A DNA stretch of 58,856 bases, taken from positions 1-58,856 of the IMG/VR virus record IMGVR_UViG_3300033183_000442; one strand, written 5' to 3'. The notes beneath the pieces were generated by a model that saw only the letters and a list, made by a program, of their open reading frames with translations, did not search any database and was not told the DNA's origin. The position numbers were made by a program, and so were the translations under genes. Source of the DNA: a virus. Positions 1 to 58,856 of this stretch are shown piece after piece. Each line of letters begins with the position of its first letter. Position 1 is the stretch's first letter.

Positions 1-18
1 GTCAGAGGATGATCTGGA

Positions 19-282
19 TTAGGTATCCAGACTGACACTTACGATTTGAACCTCTTCATAAATTTCAAGCGCACTTGCGACGGACGCGGCGGCCTGCATG
101 GCGGCGTCAGATGTTGCATAGCTTCCCAGTTCTTTAAACATCAAGCCACTGTCAAATCGCGTACTGACCGAAACCAACATCAAAAGAGTGCTGCCCGCCT
201 GAGCGCCCACAATGACAAATGTTTCAACGCTGGAATTATTGGTCAGCTCATGAATTTTCGACAAAAGGGTGGGTGAATACAT
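19..282 (-). CDS. Hypothetical protein, host chromosome left of attL
   Basis: A small protein of about 87 residues with no family that I recognise. It has a hydrophobic stretch (IVGAQAGSTLLMLVSV) and an alanine-rich C-terminal part. I start it at the internal ATG (MYSPTLL) because GGAGGAATTGAGG lies just upstream; an ATG seven codons earlier is also possible. It lies outside the left attachment repeat, so it belongs to the bacterial chromosome rather than the prophage. Its function is unknown. Confidence 0.55.
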   Translation of the reverse strand: MYSPTLLSKIHELTNNSSVETFVIVGAQAGSTLLMLVSVSTRFDSGLMFKELGSYATSDAAMQAAASVASALEIYEEVQIVSVSLDT

Positions 283-355
283 CCTCAATTCCTCCGTCTG
301 CATGAACTAACGCAAGCGGGTCATGTGACAAGATATTTAATCAAAATTTGGAATA

Positions 356-374
356 TTTGGAGCGGGCGATGAGA
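356..374. repeat. attL: 19-bp core repeat (tRNA-Gly 3' end fragment)
   Basis: TTTGGAGCGGGCGATGAGA is identical to 56005-56023, which is the 3' end of tRNA-Gly including its encoded CCA. The flanking bases differ on both sides, so the identity is exactly 19 bp. This copy is only a tRNA fragment, as expected for attL. Just inside the phage are a small inverted repeat GAGAC-C-GTCTC (373-383) and a hairpin AAAACCC/GGGTTTT (393-399/411-417). No gene is seen between 304 and 497. Confidence 0.92.
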
Positions 375-497: not shown

Positions 498-1829
498 ATG
501 CCCAAGACCAGAAAAGTCGGTAAATACTTAGAGCTGAAGGGTAACACCTGGATGGTGTTCATGGATGTACCAAAAGACTTGCGTAAGCATTTCGGTAAGG
601 CTCGTCTGAAAAAATCACTGGGAACCTCTGATGCTGGTTTGGCCGAGCAGTGGAAGCATCAGTACATTGCTGATTGGAAGATGCAAATTGCCATCGCCAG
701 AAATGATCCGGATATGGAGATAGGTGAGGTTTCAGATGCGATCAATGCAATGAATAAGTTCTTGGATCAAATGAATCTCAGCCCACAAATGCGACATCTT
801 ATGGCTGCAAAGTATTTTAACCCTGACATTCCAAACTTGAGCGAAGAACAGCAAAGTAAGCGCACCCGAGCGTTTGGCGGGGTTACGTCAACCTTAACTA
901 ATACAGCCGACTACATCGATGAGTTCTTTGATTATGCGAAATACGCACCTGAAGTGCACATTGAAGGTAAGCGTTATATGACGGACGTTTTTGTCAAAAA
1001 GTTCCCAGTGTTTGAGACCATATCCACTGAGCAGTTGGTTACTTATTGTGATGCTAAATTACGGGGTACAGACGGCAGGCAATCTTGGTCTCGGGTTACC
1101 CTGCGCAAAAACCTAAACTTCGCAAAAAAGTATTGGGAATATTGCGCCCAAAGGTACACTAGTGCACCAAACTTAATCGACTATGAGCGGATACTGCCGC
1201 AAGAGATCAGAACTAAAGCCACCCGTAAAAACAGTGATGAGGCGAATAAAGCCTATTCAGTTGATGAGGTGTATCTGTTGCTTGATGCGGCGGTAAAGAA
1301 AGCCGAAGAAACCAACAGGCATGGTGACCATAACCTTGTCGATCTAATTCGATTGGGCATGTACACAGGGTGCCGTATTGAAGAGCTGTGCCAGATGAAA
1401 CTCACAGATGTAACGGCTGACAGTTTTATCATCAGGGATTCAAAAACTGAAAGCGGTCAGCGACTGGTGCCGATGCATAAAGAGGTTTCACAGGTCGTAG
1501 AGCGGCTCAAGCAGTCTAGTACTGATGGTTTCCTGCTGTCAGGTGAATCCACTGCTAATGCCACTGGTAAGCGCAGTAAGGGCCTCAGCCAGCGGTTCTC
1601 AAGGCATAAGCAGGAATTGGGGTTTGGGAATAAGGTCTACACATTTCACAGCTTCCGTTCGACTTTGGCCAAGAGGTTTGAAAGTGCAGGGGTAGAGGAA
1701 ATTAGAGCTGCCCGTATCATCGGACACAAGGTCAAATCGATGACCTATGGAATTTATTCCCGAGGAACGGATTGGGATGTTTTGTTCAATACGATGAACG
1801 AAAAAATCAGTTTCCCTAGGTCGGCTTAA
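498..1829 (+). CDS. int: Phage integrase (tyrosine recombinase)
   Basis: A 443-residue tyrosine recombinase that would catalyse integration and excision between attP and the tRNA-Gly attB. The N-terminal part (about 1-60, KYLELKGNTWMVFMDVPKDL) resembles the DUF6538-type domain found at the start of many integrases. The catalytic domain shows R293 (GCRIEEL), H384-x2-R387 (HSFRS), H410 (IIGHK) and the probable nucleophile Y420. The start is preceded by AGGTGGAG at a good distance. It is the gene next to attL and reads into the prophage. Its 3' end overlaps the end of the convergent early operon by 14 bp, so the two transcripts collide here without an obvious terminator. Confidence 0.95.
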   Translation: MPKTRKVGKYLELKGNTWMVFMDVPKDLRKHFGKARLKKSLGTSDAGLAEQWKHQYIADWKMQIAIARNDPDMEIGEVSDAINAMNKFLDQMNLSPQMRHLMAAKYFNPDIPNLSEEQQSKRTRAFGGVTSTLTNTADYIDEFFDYAKYAPEVHIEGKRYMTDVFVKKFPVFETISTEQLVTYCDAKLRGTDGRQSWSRVTLRKNLNFAKKYWEYCAQRYTSAPNLIDYERILPQEIRTKATRKNSDEANKAYSVDEVYLLLDAAVKKAEETNRHGDHNLVDLIRLGMYTGCRIEELCQMKLTDVTADSFIIRDSKTESGQRLVPMHKEVSQVVERLKQSSTDGFLLSGESTANATGKRSKGLSQRFSRHKQELGFGNKVYTFHSFRSTLAKRFESAGVEEIRAARIIGHKVKSMTYGIYSRGTDWDVLFNTMNEKISFPRSA

Positions 1830-2313
1830 TCATCGCCAGCAAATTGATGTGCTGGCATTTATCAAGCGGAACGCAGTAGAATTTTTCACCCGATGGAACC
1901 CGCTCGTTTTTGTTTTCAACGACAGGGCTATTTAGGACATCTTCGGCCCTGACATACATCGCATGTGTTTGCGAATTATTGATCACCATGAACACAGATT
2001 TATCCTTGGCGAACTTCTTTTTGCGCAAGGGTAGGTAGAGGCTGTCGAAAGGGAAATCAGTCCCATGCCATTTCTGCCTTATCTCAACCTCGCAGCCGAA
2101 GGATTTACCGTTGCGCTCAACAATTAGATCGATCCCGAACGGATCCTCATTTTCAACGCACTCACAATCCATGGCTTTCCAAAACATGATCCCCAGTGCC
2201 TTGGCTGGGGCATCAAATATTTCCCATTGATCTTCTTCAAACGCTTTAAGCACTTTAACGTTCCTTGTTCTGGGAATAGGCGGTGTTCCAACCTCTGTGC
2301 CATTCCCGTTCAT
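1816..2313 (-). CDS. Putative PD-(D/E)XK-like protein, last gene of early operon
   Basis: A protein of about 165 residues ending the leftward early operon. A stretch with GIDLIVERNG followed by CEVEIRQKW looks like the D...ExE core of a restriction-endonuclease-like fold, but the usual ExK lysine is not clear, so this is a weak suggestion. I choose the start at MNGNGTEVG because GGAAAGG lies about 7 nt upstream; the longer ATG at 2376 has no ribosome-binding site. With this start it overlaps the end of the RMF-like micro-gene in another frame. A nuclease acting on host or competitor DNA would fit the neighbourhood, but function is unproven. Confidence 0.6.
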   Translation of the reverse strand: MNGNGTEVGTPPIPRTRNVKVLKAFEEDQWEIFDAPAKALGIMFWKAMDCECVENEDPFGIDLIVERNGKSFGCEVEIRQKWHGTDFPFDSLYLPLRKKKFAKDKSVFMVINNSQTHAMYVRAEDVLNSPVVENKNERVPSGEKFYCVPLDKCQHINLLAMIKPT

Positions 2314-2407
2314 AGAAAGAGCCTTTCCGGTAGACGCACTCATCATTTGCGATGAATGCGTTGTAACCATGCTCATAGGGTGTTTTTGCGGGGAATATCC
2401 GTTTCAT
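2255..2407 (-). CDS. RMF/CrpP-like 50-aa micro-protein
   Basis: A 50-residue basic protein whose ATG lies 2 bases after the RNR stop codon, so it is probably translationally coupled to it. The pattern YEHGYNAF, then CVYR, then EREWHRGWNTAY matches the layout of ribosome modulation factor and the related CrpP family (GY-x-A, CPY, R-x2-W-x2-GW-x-A). RMF dimerises and inactivates 70S ribosomes; the role of CrpP-like proteins in phages is not settled. The second half is overlapped by the next gene in a different frame. Confidence rests on the motif spacing and the coupled start. Confidence 0.65.
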   Translation of the reverse strand: MKRIFPAKTPYEHGYNAFIANDECVYRKGSFYEREWHRGWNTAYSQNKER

Positions 2408-2409
2408 GA

Positions 2410-4095
2410 TTAAACCCCGCATGTGCCGCCAGTGCCACTGATGTCGCAGATGTCATGCGTTTCAATGGCTTCTTCAAACTCGGTTCCCAGTTTGGTCACA
2501 GCCTCGCTATACGGGACGCTGGTGAGGGGTTGCCCACCTCTGGAGCCATCAGGGTAACAGGTGAAACCCCGGAGCCTCGGAGCGTATTTAGCCAAAGTTG
2601 TAGCGAACTTCTCAACGGTATCGTCATTGTTCAGTTTGCTTCCCCATGACGGCAGGTTGATTGTCGATGAAATCGATTGATCAACATAATCCTGAACATC
2701 CGCCTGAAAGGCCATTCTGCGTTCGTAATCCTCAGCCAGATCAATCGCACTTTCAACGCCCTCTGGGTCAACCCCGTAGCGTTCAATCAGCTCTTGCGCA
2801 GCACTATCGACAACATACTGATACACCCAACGGTTCTGACCCTTGAGATATCGCCGTTTATAGGCCACCGCAAAGATTGGTTCGACCCCAGTGGATGTGC
2901 CTGCCAGGATTCCTATAGAACCTGTCGGCGCCACCGCCCTCTTGGCCACTGGGCGGGATAGATCCAACTCATCAGCCGTTTTTGCCGATGTATCATCAGA
3001 CACACCTCGGTAAACCGACAGCCAACTATGCAACTCAGGCGTAACCTCGTAACGGCTGTTGCGCTTGATCAACCATTCATGGATGCCCATTAAACCAAGC
3101 CCAAGGCGGCGGTTTTTCTGCCGGACATCGTAAACTTTGTCATATGGCAGTTTGGCCTTCATGGTGCCGCAAATCAGGAACTTGGTGGCCAGATGCACCA
3201 CATCTGCAAACTCATGGATATCATCGATACGACCCATGTTCAGCGATCCTAGGTTACAGACATCGCTATCATCCGAACTGGTGACCTCGGTGCAGGCGTT
3301 TCGCAGTGTTTCATCGTTCTTGTCGAAAAAGTTGAAACTGAAACCTGGTTCAGCGGTGCGCATCGCCTGCCGAACGTTTTCAACAAACACATCACCAGGG
3401 TGCCCAGTAGCATAATACTGCATGATCCAATCTGTGTCGTAGTTGACGCTGATATTTGTCATGTCCAACGGCGCTGGGAAGTTGAAATCAGACTGCTTGA
3501 TGTCCCACAGGCTTTGCCCTGTTTGGCCAACTGGCATGTTTTGCCAATCCTTGGCCCGTAGGAAATCACTGATGTCACCATGTTGCCAGTTCAACGAAGC
3601 GTAGATCGCAGATCGGCGAGATCCGCCTTGCATGACCCTTCGACCTATTTCGTTGATCATATTCATTTTGGGGATTGGCCCCGAAGCTGTGCCGCCAGTT
3701 TTCTTTATGGGCGTTCCAGCGGCCCTGTAGACGCTGTAATCGACGCCTATGCCGCCACCAGTCATCAGACAGCTTTCGGCCTTCCATGACAGGTCTGCCC
3801 AATCCTCTCGGGTGTCCTCTTCGGCCTTTAACAAATAGCAATTGTTAAAAAACTTATTGGGACGGCCCGCATAGTAGAGGTAGCGCCCGCCGGGGATGAA
3901 TTTCATCTCGGCGATATATTGGGTGAGCTGATCAACTTCGTCTTTGGTGAGGACATCACCACAGACATCCTCGACCAAAGTTTTTGCCAATTGTTCCCAA
4001 GTTTCCGCACCTTCATGCCTGTATTTGTGGTTGAAGATGTCTTCCGAAAACTTGGATCTGAACGCTGGGTTCAGGTTTGATTTGTACGCCGCCAT
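2410..4095 (-). CDS. nrdJ: Class II (adenosylcobalamin-dependent) ribonucleotide reductase
   Basis: A 561-residue enzyme that reduces ribonucleotides to deoxyribonucleotides for phage replication, using coenzyme B12 to start the radical. Visible signatures are C86 (NNCYL) and C280 (DVCNLGSLN) as the redox pair, N266-x-C268-x-E270 (NACTE) with the thiyl-radical cysteine, the APTGSIG phosphate loop near the middle, STINLPSW, and a C-terminal redox pair C550/C559 (CDISGTGGTCGV). No class I small subunit or class III activase gene is present. This enzyme type defines the cobavirus group of roseobacter phages. The start overlaps the MazG-like stop as TGATG, so it is translationally coupled. Confidence 0.93.
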   Translation of the reverse strand: MAAYKSNLNPAFRSKFSEDIFNHKYRHEGAETWEQLAKTLVEDVCGDVLTKDEVDQLTQYIAEMKFIPGGRYLYYAGRPNKFFNNCYLLKAEEDTREDWADLSWKAESCLMTGGGIGVDYSVYRAAGTPIKKTGGTASGPIPKMNMINEIGRRVMQGGSRRSAIYASLNWQHGDISDFLRAKDWQNMPVGQTGQSLWDIKQSDFNFPAPLDMTNISVNYDTDWIMQYYATGHPGDVFVENVRQAMRTAEPGFSFNFFDKNDETLRNACTEVTSSDDSDVCNLGSLNMGRIDDIHEFADVVHLATKFLICGTMKAKLPYDKVYDVRQKNRRLGLGLMGIHEWLIKRNSRYEVTPELHSWLSVYRGVSDDTSAKTADELDLSRPVAKRAVAPTGSIGILAGTSTGVEPIFAVAYKRRYLKGQNRWVYQYVVDSAAQELIERYGVDPEGVESAIDLAEDYERRMAFQADVQDYVDQSISSTINLPSWGSKLNNDDTVEKFATTLAKYAPRLRGFTCYPDGSRGGQPLTSVPYSEAVTKLGTEFEEAIETHDICDISGTGGTCGV

Positions 4096-4523
4096 CAGAC
4101 CAAATCCCCCAAATCAGGTTCTTGGTAATTAGGACCTTTCATCACTTTGCCATCGCTGCGGACAATAGGGTTACCATCATCATCCAATTTGGACATGTTT
4201 GATGCATGAACCCTGCGGAACGCTTCGTCTAAATCCCAGCCAAAGGTGATGGCGTACCCATAGGTGACGTACAACACATCACACAGCTCCTTCAGAAGGT
4301 TTTCTTGTTCCTCCGCTGAACACACTTCATCGAACTCTTCGCTCATGAGTTTCATGCGCAGGCGGTCTGCATCACTATTCTGTTCATAGGGCAGGCCAAT
4401 GCTGTGCCCCATGATTTTGTGAAACTGTGTCACCATCTGCATTGGTGTTTTGCCTAGGTAGGCATCAGGGTCCATGAAAGCCAATCGGTTTTCATCGAAA
4501 TATTCAAAGCTAACGTCCATCAT
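4095..4523 (-). CDS. MazG-like nucleotide pyrophosphohydrolase
   Basis: A protein of about 142 residues of the all-alpha NTP pyrophosphohydrolase type (MazG / phosphoribosyl-ATP pyrophosphohydrolase-like). The acidic metal-binding helices are visible as LMSEEFDEV and, after ENLLKELCDVLYVTYG, the second helix with E and D. Such proteins hydrolyse (d)NTPs or alarmone-like nucleotides and are common beside phage nucleotide-metabolism genes. I prefer the start MMDVSFEYF, which has GAGGAAC 4 nt upstream, over the ATG four codons earlier. It overlaps the preceding DUF3310 gene by 14 nt and is coupled to the RNR gene. Confidence 0.82.
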   Translation of the reverse strand: MMDVSFEYFDENRLAFMDPDAYLGKTPMQMVTQFHKIMGHSIGLPYEQNSDADRLRMKLMSEEFDEVCSAEEQENLLKELCDVLYVTYGYAITFGWDLDEAFRRVHASNMSKLDDDGNPIVRSDGKVMKGPNYQEPDLGDLV

Positions 4524-29201: not shown

Positions 29202-29750
29202 TTACTCAAACGGTTCTACATACATCTCACCATTGTGCGAAAGTGGGTCCCAGACTATTTCCTGTTCTTGACGCTCATTTGTGGCGAAGAAGACCTGCGA
29301 TTTTTCGATGATGGTTGAATGTATTTGTGGATTACTAAGCTTGATGCCTCGATGACCTTTGGCAAATCCCACTGCCACCTGCTTATCCAGTGTCCAAGAT
29401 AATCCATGCCAGCCGAAGATTTCACAGCCTCGATAAACCTTAAAAGCCCAAGGTAACGAATTAAACCATTTGGCTTCGCTACTTTTCACTACACTATCAG
29501 AGTTTTTGTGATGTGCATTGAATAGCTTTTTAAAATCGTTCGTTAAGTCTGAAAAATTATCACAGCCTGTCCAGTTTTGATGGACCAGTTTTACAAAGTC
29601 ATACCCTGCATCTGCTTTTGCCAGTTTTATAATGACTTTAGCTACATCTTCACTGCCTAACCCTGGACCTATGAGTGTGTAGTCATCCTGCAAATAGCGG
29701 TCAGCCAATTCTGCAGCATCAAATTCATCAACATTTAGAGCACTAAACAT
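29202..29750 (-). CDS. ADP-ribosyltransferase-like moron
   Basis: A 182-residue protein read against the late operon, in the gap between portal and structural genes. The C-terminal half shows VYRGCEIFGWHGLSWTLDKQ (in part), then VAVGFAKGHRG and, near the end, ERQEQEIVWDP. YRG, LSWT and a late E-x-E correspond in order to the R-S-E triad of mono-ADP-ribosyltransferase folds. If active it could modify a host or competing-phage target using NAD+. The N-terminal half is helical and unassigned. The family call is from motif order only. Confidence 0.55.
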   Translation of the reverse strand: MFSALNVDEFDAAELADRYLQDDYTLIGPGLGSEDVAKVIIKLAKADAGYDFVKLVHQNWTGCDNFSDLTNDFKKLFNAHHKNSDSVVKSSEAKWFNSLPWAFKVYRGCEIFGWHGLSWTLDKQVAVGFAKGHRGIKLSNPQIHSTIIEKSQVFFATNERQEQEIVWDPLSHNGEMYVEPFE

Positions 29751-30651: not shown

Positions 30652-31428
30652 ATGGCAAAATATAAACGAGCAGAAGAGTTAGACGACGATCTATCTTACA
30701 GCCAAGAAGTGGCGAAACAGCAGGAACCCGCAGAGCCTGAAGTAGAAAATGCGGAAGAGGCATCCTTCAAAAAGCGATATGGTGACCTACGCCGACATTC
30801 GCAAAACTTGATGTCACAAAAAGACAAAGAGATTGAGCAACTGAAGCAACAGCTTGATAGCGCAGCTAAAGGGCAAATACGTTTCCCAAAGACTGATGAA
30901 GAAATCGAGCAGTGGAGCGCAAAGTATCCGGACGTTGCCAAAATCGTTGATACAATCGCCCGCAAACGAGCCAATGAGGCACTGGAGGAGGGGGAAAGGC
31001 GTCTAGGTCACCTCAAGGACCTAGAAACTAAACTCTCTCGCAAAGAAGCTGAACAGCAGCTCTACAAACTTCACCCTGACTTTGGTGAGATTAGGCAAGA
31101 CCCTACGTTCCATGAATGGGTGCAGATGCAGCCTGCATATATCCAGGACGCACTATATAAAAATAACACAGACGCTCATGCAGCCTCTCGGGCTTTGGAC
31201 CTTTATAAAGCTGATACGGGACGTCGAAAAACAACCAATAAAAAGTCAGCGGCAACTGCTGTAGGGCGCACATCTAGTTCAACTCCTGGCGTTGAAGGCA
31301 AAGCAAAGTTTAGCGAAAGCCAAGTCGCAAAAATGAGTGACCGAGATTACGAGAAAAACGAAGAAGCAATAATGGAGGCTATGCGCTCAGGCGCATTTGT
31401 CTATGACCTCTCTGGGGCGGCCCGATAA
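30652..31428 (+). CDS. Capsid scaffolding protein
   Basis: A 258-residue, highly charged, mostly helical protein with coiled coils (SQKDKEIEQLKQQLDSAA, KDLETKLSRKEAEQQLY) and a Ser/Thr/Lys-rich low-complexity linker (about 185-215), ending in a helical KFSESQVAKMSDRDYEK region. Composition and its place before the major capsid gene match podovirus scaffolding proteins, which template prohead assembly and then leave. AAGGAACC precedes the ATG. Confidence 0.82.
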   Translation: MAKYKRAEELDDDLSYSQEVAKQQEPAEPEVENAEEASFKKRYGDLRRHSQNLMSQKDKEIEQLKQQLDSAAKGQIRFPKTDEEIEQWSAKYPDVAKIVDTIARKRANEALEEGERRLGHLKDLETKLSRKEAEQQLYKLHPDFGEIRQDPTFHEWVQMQPAYIQDALYKNNTDAHAASRALDLYKADTGRRKTTNKKSAATAVGRTSSSTPGVEGKAKFSESQVAKMSDRDYEKNEEAIMEAMRSGAFVYDLSGAAR

Positions 31429-31433
31429 AAAAT

Positions 31434-31743
31434 GCCCCGCACAAGGCGGGGCCAGTCCAACAGGGAGTGTGGCCGAAGCCACCGTCGGTATGTAGAATCC
31501 AGATTCTATAAGGCAAGTAAATTCCCAAAAAGAAAGGTCGGCCCAGATGACTACAAGAATTAGTGGCCGACCAGTTCAACTGACTCCGATAGGGAGGTTG
31601 GAGCCAGCGCCCTCACATTTCGTAGCAAGGTTACCGATGGGAGAGGAGTGACAACCTTACTCGGCGAAGAGCAAGCCCCGTCTAGTATGGGGATGATCAA
31701 GGAGGCTGCTCTTCTCAGATCACTTCGGATCTGTTGCAGCAAC
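31434..31743 (+). ncRNA. Multi-hairpin structured RNA between scaffold and capsid genes
   Basis: About 310 nt without a gene holds a chain of strong stems: GCCCCGC/GCGGGGC (31434-31452), TAGAATC/GATTCTA (31493-31508), perfect 8-bp GGTCGGCC/GGCCGACC (31536-31572), AAGGTT/AACCTT (31627-31658), GAAGAGCA/TGCTCTTC with an inner CCCC/GGGG (31666-31714), and CAGATC/GATCTG with an ACTTCG loop (31716-31733), then GTTG/CAAC (31733-31743). None has a T tract, so these are not ordinary terminators. The layout suggests a structured RNA, for example a processing or stability element, a translation regulator, or a packaging-related RNA. Function unknown. Confidence 0.6.
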
Positions 31744-32019
31744 AATGCCTTATTTAGCCCCTAACTGTCAAATTTAATCAACATATTGTGGTGAATTTTT
31801 GTGCAAACCGACTTGGTTTGTTCATGAGTTCACAAACTCACCTCATTCAGGGCCGCTTATGCCTACCCCTGAATGAACAAATATCCAGAAGACAAAGACG
31901 CAAAGTCCACCAGTGCCCAGAGGCCCGTATATACGGCGGTATATACGCACCCTCCATCAAGCACTGCCGCTCATGGGTCCTTCTGAGAATGCAACGCCAT
32001 TTTCACAAGGAGATCAACA
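31744..32019 (+). promoter_or_regulatory. Long structured leader of the capsid gene
   Basis: This gene-free leader has a CAAACC/GGTTTG hairpin (31804-31820), a perfect 10-bp stem TCATTCAGGG/CCCTGAATGA with 14-nt loop (31843-31876), and two neighbouring GTATATAC palindromes (31927-31934, 31939-31946), the first within CCGTATATACGG. It ends with a strong AAGGAGATC site before the MCP start. It may set capsid expression level or contain a promoter; no clear -35/-10 pair was found. Confidence 0.5.
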
Positions 32020-55958: not shown

Positions 55959-56004
55959 CCTAAGTGGCTGACCTCTAAAGTAATGATATATATAGAGAAA
56001 AATT

Positions 56005-56023
56005 TTTGGAGCGGGCGATGAGA
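56005..56023. repeat. attR: 19-bp core within tRNA-Gly
   Basis: The second copy of TTTGGAGCGGGCGATGAGA. It covers the acceptor-stem 3' strand, discriminator and CCA of tRNA-Gly and part of the T-stem. The phage supplies the 3' end of the gene, so the tRNA stays intact after integration. The prophage between the cores is 55,649 bp counting one repeat. Confidence 0.92.
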
Positions 56024-56081
56024 TTCGAACTCACGACATTTACCTTGGCAAGGTAACGCTCTACCCCTGAGCTACGCCCGC
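56007..56081 (-). tRNA. tRNA-Gly (GCC)
   Basis: On the minus strand the sequence folds as acceptor GCGGGCG/CGCCCGC, D-arm GCTC...GAGC, anticodon stem TTACC/GGTAA with loop TTGCCAA (anticodon GCC), T-arm GTGAG-TTCGAAT-CTCAT, discriminator T and encoded CCA. It is the integration target, and its 3' end is duplicated at 356-374. Confidence 0.96.
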
Positions 56082-56219
56082 GTCCTTGGGTGGGTGCTGT
56101 TTATAAATAACTTCCGCCCGCTGCAAGCGAAAAACGTAACTTTGTTTCCCAACATGTCGCGGCATCTCTATTTTTTTTTGGACACCCTGTGCTAACTTGC
56201 AATTCGGGAGATTTGAAAA

Positions 56220-57389
56220 ATGAAAACACAAGTCTGTATCATCGGGGGCGGGCCCTCTGGGTTGTTGTTGGGGCAATTGTTGCACAGTATCGGTGTCGAC
56301 GCGGTTGTATTAGAGCGTCAGACACAGGAGTATGTCCTAAGTCGTATTCGGGCAGGGGTTTTGGAAGCGGGGTTTCAAAACCTAATGCGTCAGGCGGGTG
56401 TGGGTGCGCGCATGGACCGCGAAGGACATGTGCACAATGGTACCTTGATTACCTATAACAATGAACGCGTGCGCATTGATTTTAGCGCATTAACAGGCAC
56501 TTCGGTCATGGTCTATGGTCAGACCGAAGTCACCCGCGATCTATACGCCGCGCGCGCTGAAATTGGGGCCAAGACATTCCACAGTGTTGAAAATGTTGAA
56601 ATCCATGATGTTGAGGGGGATGCCCCCTATGTCACCTTTGACCAAGAAGGTGTGACGCATCACATCGAGTGCGATTTTGTTGCGGGCTGTGATGGATTTC
56701 ATGGTGTGTCGCGCCAACGCATTCCAAAAGACAAACGAAAAGAGTTTGAAAAGGAATATCCCTTCGGTTGGCTGGGCATCTTGTCACGAACACCGCCCGC
56801 GGATGAAGAGTTAATTTACGCCAATTCATCACGCGGTTTCGCCCTATGTTCCATGCGAAATGCGGAACTTAGCCGCTATTACATCCAATGCCCCATGACA
56901 GATCGGGTTGAGGATTGGAGTGATGATGCATTTTGGGATGAATTGCGCCGCCGTATTCCATCCGAAACCGCCGAGCGGTTGGTAACGGGACCCTCGATTG
57001 AAAAATCAATCGCACCCCTGCGGTCATTCGTGTGTGAACCGATGCAATGGGGGCGTTTGTTTTTATGTGGTGATGCGGCGCATATCGTTCCCCCAACAGG
57101 GGCAAAGGGGTTAAACACCGCAGCATCCGATATCCATTATTTATTCGAGGCGATGCGGGCCCATTATTTGGATCATGATGCATCTGCGATGGATCAATTC
57201 GGACCGCGTGCCTTGGCTCGTGTGTGGAAAACACAGCGCTTTTCATGGTGGATGACAACGCTATTGCATCATTTCCCAGAGCAAAGCGATTTTGATCACC
57301 ATATTCAGGCTGCTGAAATTGCGCATTTGCGCGACAATGTCGAAGCGCAGCGAGTACTGGCGAAAAACTACGTTGGGTTGCCGTACTAA
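56220..57389 (+). CDS. pobA: 4-hydroxybenzoate 3-monooxygenase
   Basis: A 389-residue flavoprotein hydroxylase that converts 4-hydroxybenzoate to protocatechuate using NADPH and O2, feeding the beta-ketoadipate pathway. It shows the FAD GxGxxG motif (IIGGGPSGLLLGQLL), the DG motif (FVAGCDGFHGVSR) and the GD motif (LFLCGDAAHIVPPTGAKGLN), and the length equals that of known PobA enzymes. It belongs to the host chromosome just right of the tRNA. No pcaQ/pobR-type regulator is seen next to it in the window. Confidence 0.93.
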   Translation: MKTQVCIIGGGPSGLLLGQLLHSIGVDAVVLERQTQEYVLSRIRAGVLEAGFQNLMRQAGVGARMDREGHVHNGTLITYNNERVRIDFSALTGTSVMVYGQTEVTRDLYAARAEIGAKTFHSVENVEIHDVEGDAPYVTFDQEGVTHHIECDFVAGCDGFHGVSRQRIPKDKRKEFEKEYPFGWLGILSRTPPADEELIYANSSRGFALCSMRNAELSRYYIQCPMTDRVEDWSDDAFWDELRRRIPSETAERLVTGPSIEKSIAPLRSFVCEPMQWGRLFLCGDAAHIVPPTGAKGLNTAASDIHYLFEAMRAHYLDHDASAMDQFGPRALARVWKTQRFSWWMTTLLHHFPEQSDFDHHIQAAEIAHLRDNVEAQRVLAKNYVGLPY

Positions 57390-57427
57390 GCGATAGGTAT
57401 CAAAATAAAATAAGCGGGTGGGGCGGT

Positions 57428-57643
57428 TTAAACGGCCCCAACCAAGTTTGCGTTCACAGGTGATGCTGCGGCTGCATCATTTGCATCCAGTTCCGTAACG
57501 ATATTCGCGATATAGGCGTCAACAAAGGATGCGCGTGAATATCCGATATCCGCAAGTTCGCGATCAGATAGCATGGCAAGTGTTTGATGTGCTGCGCTTT
57601 TGGCGCGGCTGATAACCATTGCACGATATAGCGGTCTTAGCAT
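57428..57643 (-). CDS. DUF1127 small protein
   Basis: A 71-residue protein with the DUF1127 core LSDRELADIGYSRASFVDAY after a short basic helix. AAAGGAAC precedes the ATG. In Rhodobacter and other alphaproteobacteria DUF1127 proteins are linked to stress responses, RNA turnover and small RNAs. It is transcribed away from the candidate sRNA at 57840. Confidence 0.85.
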   Translation of the reverse strand: MLRPLYRAMVISRAKSAAHQTLAMLSDRELADIGYSRASFVDAYIANIVTELDANDAAAASPVNANLVGAV

Positions 57644-57805
57644 TTTTTGTTCCTTTCTTGCTATGAGAATTAGATAGCATTGTTATCGCTAACTTACCTC
57701 ATCCAAGTTGGAATTGCAGCAATGCAGAAAATGCATAGCGCGGAGGGCATCATCACATTGTTTCGCCATAAGTAGTCAATAAATTTACAGGTCTGTAACC
57801 ACTGG

Positions 57806-57833
57806 TTGTCAAATTGATAAAATCGTGTACAAT
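57806..57833 (+). promoter_or_regulatory. Candidate promoter of an intergenic sRNA
   Basis: TTGTCA (57806-57811), 16 bp, TACAAT (57828-57833), a good sigma70-type match. The -10 lies in the palindrome TACAATTGTA, a possible operator. Confidence 0.45.
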
Positions 57834-57839
57834 TGTATA

Positions 57840-57924
57840 CACGTTGAGCAATGTCCCCCATGACATTACGCCTCAACATGTTTCTCCCCATTGGACTGGC
57901 CCCACATTTTGTGGGGCATTCTTT
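57840..57924 (+). ncRNA. Possible small RNA with C-rich single-stranded loops
   Basis: Downstream of the candidate promoter is a two-part stem GTTGAG...AATGTC/GACATT...CTCAAC (57843-57877) with CCCCCAT in its loop, then a C-rich linker (TTTCTCCCCATT), then GCCCCACA-TTT-TGTGGGGC (57899-57917) followed by ATTCTTT. C-rich exposed loops that can pair with Shine-Dalgarno sequences are typical of alphaproteobacterial stress sRNAs, some of which neighbour DUF1127 genes. The hairpins might alternatively belong to 3' processing or termination of the opposite-strand tRNA-Tyr transcript. Confidence 0.35.
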
Positions 57925-57972
57925 GTGATACCCAGATCGCGTATCACAATACTCGGATTTATGAGAAGTAAG

Positions 57973-58056
57973 TGGTGGGCGACCTAGGAATCGAACCTAG
58001 CGTGCGTCTCCGCGAGGGAGTTACAGTCCCCTGCCACACCTTGCGGCCTGTCGCCC
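57973..58056 (-). tRNA. tRNA-Tyr (GTA)
   Basis: On the minus strand: acceptor GGGCGAC/GTCGCCC, D-stem GCC/GGC, anticodon stem GGGGA/TCCCT with loop CTGTAAC (anticodon GTA), a long class II variable arm, T-arm CTAGG-TTCGATT-CCTAG, discriminator A and encoded CCA. Downstream on that strand a 9-bp hairpin TTGTGATAC/GTATCACAA (57923-57949) follows. Confidence 0.93.
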
Positions 58057-58191
58057 ACTTACCGAGTGTTGAACACTTGAACGCAGGGGTGATTAGCCTT
58101 GTTAAAAAGTATCGTCAACTAGAAAATCCCTTGAAATTGGAACTCATTCTGGCGCAGAAGGCAAAACAAAGTTAAAAAGGCGTAATTTGCG

Positions 58192-58856
58192 ATGAAAAAG
58201 CCAAAGTGGGTTGTTGAAAAAGAACAAGCGAAAAAGGCGGCAGCTCAGGAAACCGTGTGGCTTTTTGGTTTGCATGCGGTGCGCGATGCGCTGTTAAATC
58301 CAAATCGACAACATCTGCGTTTAATCCTGACGAAAAATGCGGCAGACAAACTGGCGGATGCGGTTCAGCAGTCAGATGTTGCGCCTGAAATTTGTGATCC
58401 GCGTAAATTTTCAGCCCCGCTTGATTCTGCGTCCGTGCATCAAGGTGCTGCCCTTGAAACGAAACCATTGAAATGGGGTAGTCTTGAGGATGTCGCATTG
58501 GCCCCGGGGGCAGGGGCGCCACGTTTGATTCTGCTTGATCAGGTGACAGACCCTCATAACGTTGGTGCCATTTTGCGATCTGCCGAGGTGTTTGGGGCAA
58601 GTGCTGTCATCGGCACACAGCGCCATAGCGCACCTGAAACGGGCGCATTGGCCAAAACTGCCAGCGGCGCATTGGAACGTCAGCCGTATTTGCGACTGCG
58701 CAATTTGGCCGATTCTATTCAAGAGCTGCAAAAGCTTGGATATTTGGTGCTGGGCCTTGATGGAGAGGCGAGAGAGACAATCGACACTGTCTATGCCGTG
58801 CATCAGGACCGCGCCATCGCACTTGTTCTTGGGGCAGAGGGGCCTGGGTTGCGCCA
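58192..58856 (+). CDS. rlmB: 23S rRNA 2'-O-ribose methyltransferase (RlmB-like), partial
   Basis: The first 221 codons of a SpoU-family methyltransferase; the gene runs off the window. An N-terminal substrate-binding segment (WLFGLHAVRDALLNP) is followed by motif 1 LLDQVTDPHNVGAILRSAEV and motif 2 LVLGAEGPGLR. It methylates guanosine 2251 of 23S rRNA in the typical member, using SAM and a trefoil-knot fold; other SpoU/TrmH members have different targets. The ribosome-binding site is weak. Confidence 0.88.
   Translation, partial: MKKPKWVVEKEQAKKAAAQETVWLFGLHAVRDALLNPNRQHLRLILTKNAADKLADAVQQSDVAPEICDPRKFSAPLDSASVHQGAALETKPLKWGSLEDVALAPGAGAPRLILLDQVTDPHNVGAILRSAEVFGASAVIGTQRHSAPETGALAKTASGALERQPYLRLRNLADSIQELQKLGYLVLGLDGEARETIDTVYAVHQDRAIALVLGAEGPGLR

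Follow-up and report, generated by a model that had tools for sequence, protein, structure and literature searches.

The window, by which we mean the whole 58,856-base virus record analyzed here, is of marine origin and holds an integrated HMO-2011-type prophage, with a coat protein 81% identical to the putative coat protein of Roseobacter phage CRP-235 and 57% identical to that of HMO-2011. The empty integration site was found in a sister-host genome (G202, contig L479), where window positions 1-374 correspond to 1145-1517 and positions 56005-58856 correspond to 1499-4350 at 92%, and where the two flank matches overlap by about 20 bases at tRNA-Gly. The prophage therefore spans roughly 375-56005. 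Its integrase gene (498-1829) is near the left end, and a 23-bp near-identical repeat found at both ends beside the tRNA-Gly (352-374 and 56001-56023) is likely the att core. Within the late operon, the coat gene is preceded by a gene for a 258-aa protein, for which we infer a scaffold role from that position (Table 1). An ORF of 182 aa without a Pfam match (29202-29750, minus strand) opposes the late operon between the portal gene and the next gene, and is possibly another moron in addition to the one considered below. In some relatives, the coat gene is split by group I introns (RF00028, 83-89 bits), as in L060 (4156-4367, plus strand) and L345 (3328-3553, minus strand).

The scaffold-like and coat genes are separated by a gap, as the preliminary description had reported, with a length of 591 nt (31429-32019) instead of the roughly 440 nt given there. 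Our survey of IMG/VR relatives found through the coat protein, plus phage isolates, shows a scaffold-coat gap of about 115-600 nt, commonly 215-410 nt, in almost all loci where both genes are present. The annotated gap is just 16-49 nt in the pelagiphages HTVC103P and HTVC033P and in the gammaproteobacterial relatives CHOED and Aeromonas phage 1233. Close coat-protein relatives were not found in the collection of genome contigs. We rejected a protein-coding gap: no inner ORF is long (the maximum is 66 aa, on the minus strand), and conservation lies in stems, loops and terminators. The plus strand of the gap folds better than dinucleotide shuffles (z = -4.83), as does the plus strand of 31429-31760 (z = -3.35), while the minus strand of the same first 332 nt also beats its shuffles (z = -2.65).

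The stems first described are present, among them the perfect 8-bp GGTCGGCC/GGCCGACC, the 10-bp TCATTCAGGG/CCCTGAATGA (31843-31876) and the nested AGAAGAGCAGCC hairpin. The observation that none is followed by a T tract is true of the plus strand only. On the minus strand two of the hairpins are intrinsic terminators: the first stem reads GCCCCGCCTTGTGCGGGGC-ATTTTTT (31452-31427), the sole minus-strand terminator returned by the terminator scan, and TTTCTTTTT comes after the 8-bp stem (31572-31527). The hairpins seemed to be without T tracts because the wrong strand had been read. The segment originally reported as a chain of hairpins (31434-31876) covers two different things: a likely sRNA cassette on the antisense strand, at about 31427-31771, and, of a coat leader extending to 32019, the first hairpin. 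Most hairpins of the segment belong to sRNA-like genes transcribed in the opposite direction. One functional plus-strand chain over this segment was rejected because its first 330 nt are found in four close relatives only, whereas the leader is family-wide.

Table 1. Coordinates of genes and RNA features at the scaffold-coat locus, with one host-flank RNA for comparison
Feature	Position	Strand	Basis
Scaffold-like gene, 258 aa	30652-31428	+	ORF; PHROG 13678 (unknown function), E 5.8e-49; borders gap upstream
Putative antisense sRNA cassette (sRNA-1 then sRNA-2)	31427-31771	-	Features listed below
Candidate sRNA-2, SorX-like, terminator 31452-31427	31427-31490	-	Rfam RF02784; terminator scan
Candidate sRNA-1 terminator (GGTCGGCC...GGCCGACC-TTTCTTTTT)	31527-31572	-	Sequence; loop exceeds length allowed by scan
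Candidate sRNA-1: short hairpin, three hairpins with CU-rich loops, intrinsic terminator	31527-31745	-	Compensatory stems in four phages
Promoter-like TTGACA-N17-GCATTG of sRNA-1	31743-31771	-	Same arrangement in cassette relatives and sister-host homologue
Leader hairpin P0 with GCC/CUACC internal loop	31843-31876	+	Compensated outer stem; GCC/YACC kept
Leader core P1-P2-P3; P2 and P3 each have a GCC/YACC loop	31886-31986	+	Model R1 match; covariation
3' strand of P1 with flanks (GGGTCCTTCTGAGAATG)	31975-31991	+	Predicted alternative partner of SD
Shine-Dalgarno (SD) AAGGAG of coat gene	32007-32012	+	Sequence
Coat (major capsid) gene, 357 aa	32020-33093	+	CRP-235 similarity; PHROG 267 major head protein
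Host-flank SorX-like sRNA, for comparison	57856-57924	+	RF02784, 25.5 bits, E 8.8e-4

The structured 5' leader of the coat mRNA occupies 31843-32019 on the plus strand, immediately before the coat gene, and is conserved across HMO-2011-type phages, including HMO-2011 itself, many Roseobacter phages and, weakly, Sinorhizobium phage phiM6. The shared core just before the coat SD reads CAGAAG..GAC..AGUCCACCAGU..GGCCCG..CGCACCC..ACUGCCACU..GUC..CUUCUG. For 28 relatives including the window itself (alignment A1), onto which we wrote the structure by hand, 87% of the cells form pairs. Changes on both sides are seen in 21 of the 34 pairs, and the covariation score is 0.307 as compared with 0.147 for shuffled alignments and at most 0.108 when partners were slid. 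The covariance model R1 has one match in the whole window, to the plus-strand core (82.5 bits, E 1.7e-20), a score that is partly by construction since the window sequence is among the 28 in A1. Matches of R1 in the distant lineages around CRP-1 and HMO-2011, outside the model training, are directly before the coat gene. Across 33 such distant phages, 29 of 34 pairs show double changes, with 245 doubly changed cells against 104.8 +/- 7.1 in shuffled and at most 63 in slid alignments, although the alignment was fitted to R1 and so favours the modelled structure. When run without filters, R1 also marks the leader position in HMO-2011 and phiM6; it finds no leader in the CRP-2 group nor in part of the CRP-212 relatives. 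The outer stem of P0 is compensated among relatives (AUAGG/CCUAU, ACAAA/UUUGU, GACAG/CUGUC, GUAGA/UCUAC) with GCC/YACC unchanged.

Searches with Rfam 15 returned no gathering-level match for the leader in the window gap or the loci of eight relatives, and a lax threshold added only ES173 on the plus strand, at 16.8 bits versus 90 and not within the leader core. No tRNA-like or known Rfam RNA was found for the leader. No leader was matched in 298 host-family genomes when bacterial chromosomes were searched without a positive control, and we found nothing in the literature on a coat-leader RNA in HMO-2011-type phages. We are nearly certain that the leader is real and represents a new family of structured RNAs in these phages, and the window has the features by which we define that family, namely the P1-P2-P3 fold, the GCC/YACC loops and a place directly before the coat gene. 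The undescribed structured RNA proposed in the preliminary description thus survives as the leader, whose homologues show compensatory changes and which occurs in near relatives; its coordinates do not, as the leader is mostly downstream of them.

An identical asymmetric internal loop, with GCC facing YACC in either orientation, recurs in P0, P2 and P3. Across four lineages, the double-stem module occurs 0.5-1.2 times per leader with GCC first and 0.2-0.8 times with ACC first, compared with 0.003-0.03 in dinucleotide shuffles. Because we derived the module from the window's own lineage, the CRP-1 and HMO lineages serve as independent tests. The three copies are most simply read as binding sites, which suggests an oligomeric protein, perhaps free coat or scaffold, as their partner.

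Thermodynamic prediction indicates that the 3' strand of P1 (CCUUCUG) is able to pair with the SD region. For the 28 relatives, the mean probability of the SD being unpaired is 0.68 with P1-P3 enforced and 0.18 with the 5' strand of P1 removed, changing in the same direction in all 28. With that strand removed, the value is 0.46 if the letters of the P1 3' strand are permuted and 0.65 if they are masked. The corresponding values for the 33 distant relatives are 0.70 enforced, 0.35 removed, 0.51 permuted and 0.58 masked, with the same direction in 29 of 33. Free folding gave extra SD pairing relative to shuffled leaders in three lineages and none in the HMO lineage. These calculations support P1 and SD pairing as mutually exclusive. 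We accordingly propose only tentatively, at somewhat less than even confidence, an SD switch: with P1-P3 formed, the SD would be free and the coat translated; with P1 open, its 3' strand (CUUCUG) would pair with the SD region and turn coat synthesis off. Binding of an oligomeric protein to the three modules may set the prevailing state, and the leader would then be a translational riboregulator of coat synthesis. The control of capsid synthesis anticipated earlier is something we infer from this predicted switch and from the place of the leader as the coat 5' UTR, both of which fit it. Intrinsic attenuation was rejected, as the terminator scan found no plus-strand terminator-like site anywhere in the gap.

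Of 309 relatives, 280 have a sigma-70-like promoter, in most cases 200-270 nt upstream of the coat start. An equal promoter score is reached at some place in the gap by 134 of 316 single-letter shuffles, so the case for the promoter rests in part on its fixed position. The promoter is absent before the leader in the window and in the cassette-bearing relatives L003 and L005. The window's own leader may thus come by read-through only, and coat expression in this prophage probably depends on read-through or another kind of promoter. In the upstream part of the gap in L017, L024, L050, L059 and similar loci, a TTGACA promoter-like site preceding the leader is flanked by the arms of an inverted repeat, GGCAGTYCTAG...CTAGGGCTGTC, which is possibly operator-like.

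The first part of the gap likely holds a genuine sRNA cassette on the minus strand, found in the window, L003, L344 (the contig of L005) and L345 only, all of them close relatives. Hardly any change is seen in its terminators and unpaired stretches, whereas its stems vary with compensation among the four phages (CUGGCUCC/GGAGUCAG versus CUGGCU/AGCCAG). The promoter-like TTGACA-N17-RCATTS arrangement is common to cassette relatives and the G202 homologue of sRNA-1. Candidate sRNA-2 aligns with the full length (1-73) of SorX (RF02784) at 41.3 bits (E 1.4e-8), below the gathering cut-off of 46.6, so that strict SorX membership is not established. SorX and SorY (RF02651) are stress sRNAs of Rhodobacter sphaeroides; SorX is cut from the ompR-1 3' UTR by RNase E and targets a polyamine-transporter mRNA (PMC8625941). 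As in SorX, a CUCCCUGUUGGA stretch is followed in sRNA-2 by a GC-rich terminator hairpin and a U run, and the last ~55 nt are identical in all four phages; unlike SorX, sRNA-2 is phage-borne and follows another sRNA. SorX-like RNAs are ordinary host genes, with matches in 56 of 61 host-family genomes (45 over the cut-off) and a single one, below the cut-off, in 14 control genomes. A DUF1127 gene (57428-57643, minus strand) is near the SorX-like sRNA in the host flank, and such genes often accompany CcsR-type sRNAs. A SorX-like module, CTCCCTGTTGGAC-TGGCC plus terminator, was also seen in the viral contigs L346, L347, L342, L343, L348 and L349, directly after an ORF 3' end in the first two.

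Candidate sRNA-1 is about 210 nt long and has a homologue in just one of 397 host-family genomes, that of the sister species G202 (82% over the 3' half, with shorter matches in the 5' half); an integrase and an L,D-transpeptidase gene are nearby. None was found in a set of 29 host genomes, and plasmids yielded one weak 44-base match to the cassette. The alpha-r14/cuckoo RNA has three hairpins, each with an identical unpaired CCUCCUCCC motif (PMC10746234), and silences mRNAs through anti-SD loops. Like the alpha-r14/cuckoo/CcsR sRNAs of Alphaproteobacteria, sRNA-1 has three hairpins, CU-rich unpaired stretches and a terminator. These stretches could pair with SD sequences, and CTCC words number 6 compared with 2.6 in shuffles (P 0.02). 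However, the loops of sRNA-1 differ from one another (CCUCCUU, CUCCUCUCCC, CCUCCC), none being CCUCCUCCC, and the prophage cassette is without a DUF1127 gene. We rejected membership in this family, as the Rfam ar14 score is 15 bits (E 2.2) against a gathering cut-off of 58.8 and the identical motif is missing.

A moron is prophage cargo transcribed independently, from a promoter and to a terminator of its own; most relatives lack it, and what is carried at the site differs. The cassette is moron-like in its terminators, its restricted distribution and, in L003, an extra protein gene at the site, and its promoter is a candidate recognized by sequence resemblance. Its orientation facing the late operon, together with the gene added in L003, fits this view. 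That gene (1449-2030, minus strand; 193 aa with a signal-peptide-like start) is between the scaffold stop and the cassette, and is missing in the window. The prophage sRNAs STnc6030 (BTP1) and AgvB (Sp5) are thought to act in the lysogen (PMC12197685). The cassette similarly consists of putative sRNA genes carried by a prophage, but it brings together sRNAs of host type and, placed between the scaffold and coat genes, faces the late operon. Its sRNAs may be made in the lysogen, where they would repress host mRNAs by pairing at SD regions, and upon induction the antisense late transcript would neutralise them. The action in trans envisaged in the preliminary description is plausible for this minus-strand cassette, and we are evenly divided on a host-directed role.

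The cassette might instead act mainly in cis or on related phages, hindering late expression or superinfection through its antisense position to the scaffold-coat transcript. Prophage antisense RNAs with such a role are known, an example being STnc6030 of BTP1 and its tailspike gene (PMC12197685). Yet it covers no coding sequence, ends before the leader (31771 versus 31843), would reach only phages with the same cassette and resembles trans-acting host sRNAs, all of which makes this reading improbable.

Translational control by the leader has to be weighed against other functions. One is that of a passive, RNase-protective stabiliser and translation enhancer that serves a very abundant mRNA and responds to no ligand, as in the leader of T7 gene 10, the short and simple 5' UTR of a phage major-capsid mRNA. 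Both are structured leaders just before the most abundant structural gene and have a promoter of their own, the coat leader in most relatives of the window, and the coat SD is clean and predicted to be free when P1-P3 is formed. The coat leader differs in its length of about 170 nt, conserved multi-helix fold, repeated loop and predicted SD-sequestering alternative, and we find a passive role unlikely since it needs neither an invariant internal loop repeated three times nor such deep covariation with fixed loop letters. HK022 put, an antitermination RNA acting on RNA polymerase, offers another precedent: the leader, transcribed shortly after the coat promoter, would modify the polymerase to read the whole coat-tail operon. 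Compared through the Rfam scan only, the two are alike as folded phage RNAs early in an operon transcript; the leader stands at the head of a long operon, is preceded by the promoter in most relatives and has no terminator-like site on its plus strand. But its conserved arm directly borders the coat SD, which the P1 3' strand matches, and the leader promoter is missing in the window, so we give antitermination a small chance. That the element, as DNA or RNA, serves packaging or head assembly and not expression is highly improbable: it occurs once in the window and among head genes, but the terminase gene is about 5 kb upstream, and compensation, invariant asymmetric loops and the fixed place just before the coat SD point to mRNA. 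For the translational reading that we prefer, a parallel is the coat-protein translational operator of MS2-type RNA phages, also an mRNA structure at a ribosome-binding site and a possible site for a virion protein. The coat leader differs from it in belonging to a dsDNA phage, in having several modules and in leading the coat gene itself, and protein binding to it is conjectural.

On balance we lean slightly towards the combined account, in which one gap carries a riboregulatory coat leader on the plus strand and a host-type sRNA cassette on the minus strand. More speculative, and in our judgement doubtful, is a new class of phage riboregulator in which three GCC/YACC protein-binding modules would sense free coat or scaffold and toggle the coat SD, running through a dominant ocean phage group and reaching the soil Sinorhizobium phages. 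HMO-2011-type phages rank with the most abundant groups of marine phages known, and the text of their genome survey makes no mention of a noncoding, promoter, terminator or sRNA feature (PMC9038755). A strongly covarying RNA fixed before the coat gene would add a new family of RNAs and offer a way into the balance of coat versus scaffold, and the repeated internal loop predicts one ligand. The cassette would be an RNA-only moron, in which a prophage carries host-style sRNAs, and would make regulation of the lysogen by phage sRNAs directly testable in Rhodobacterales.
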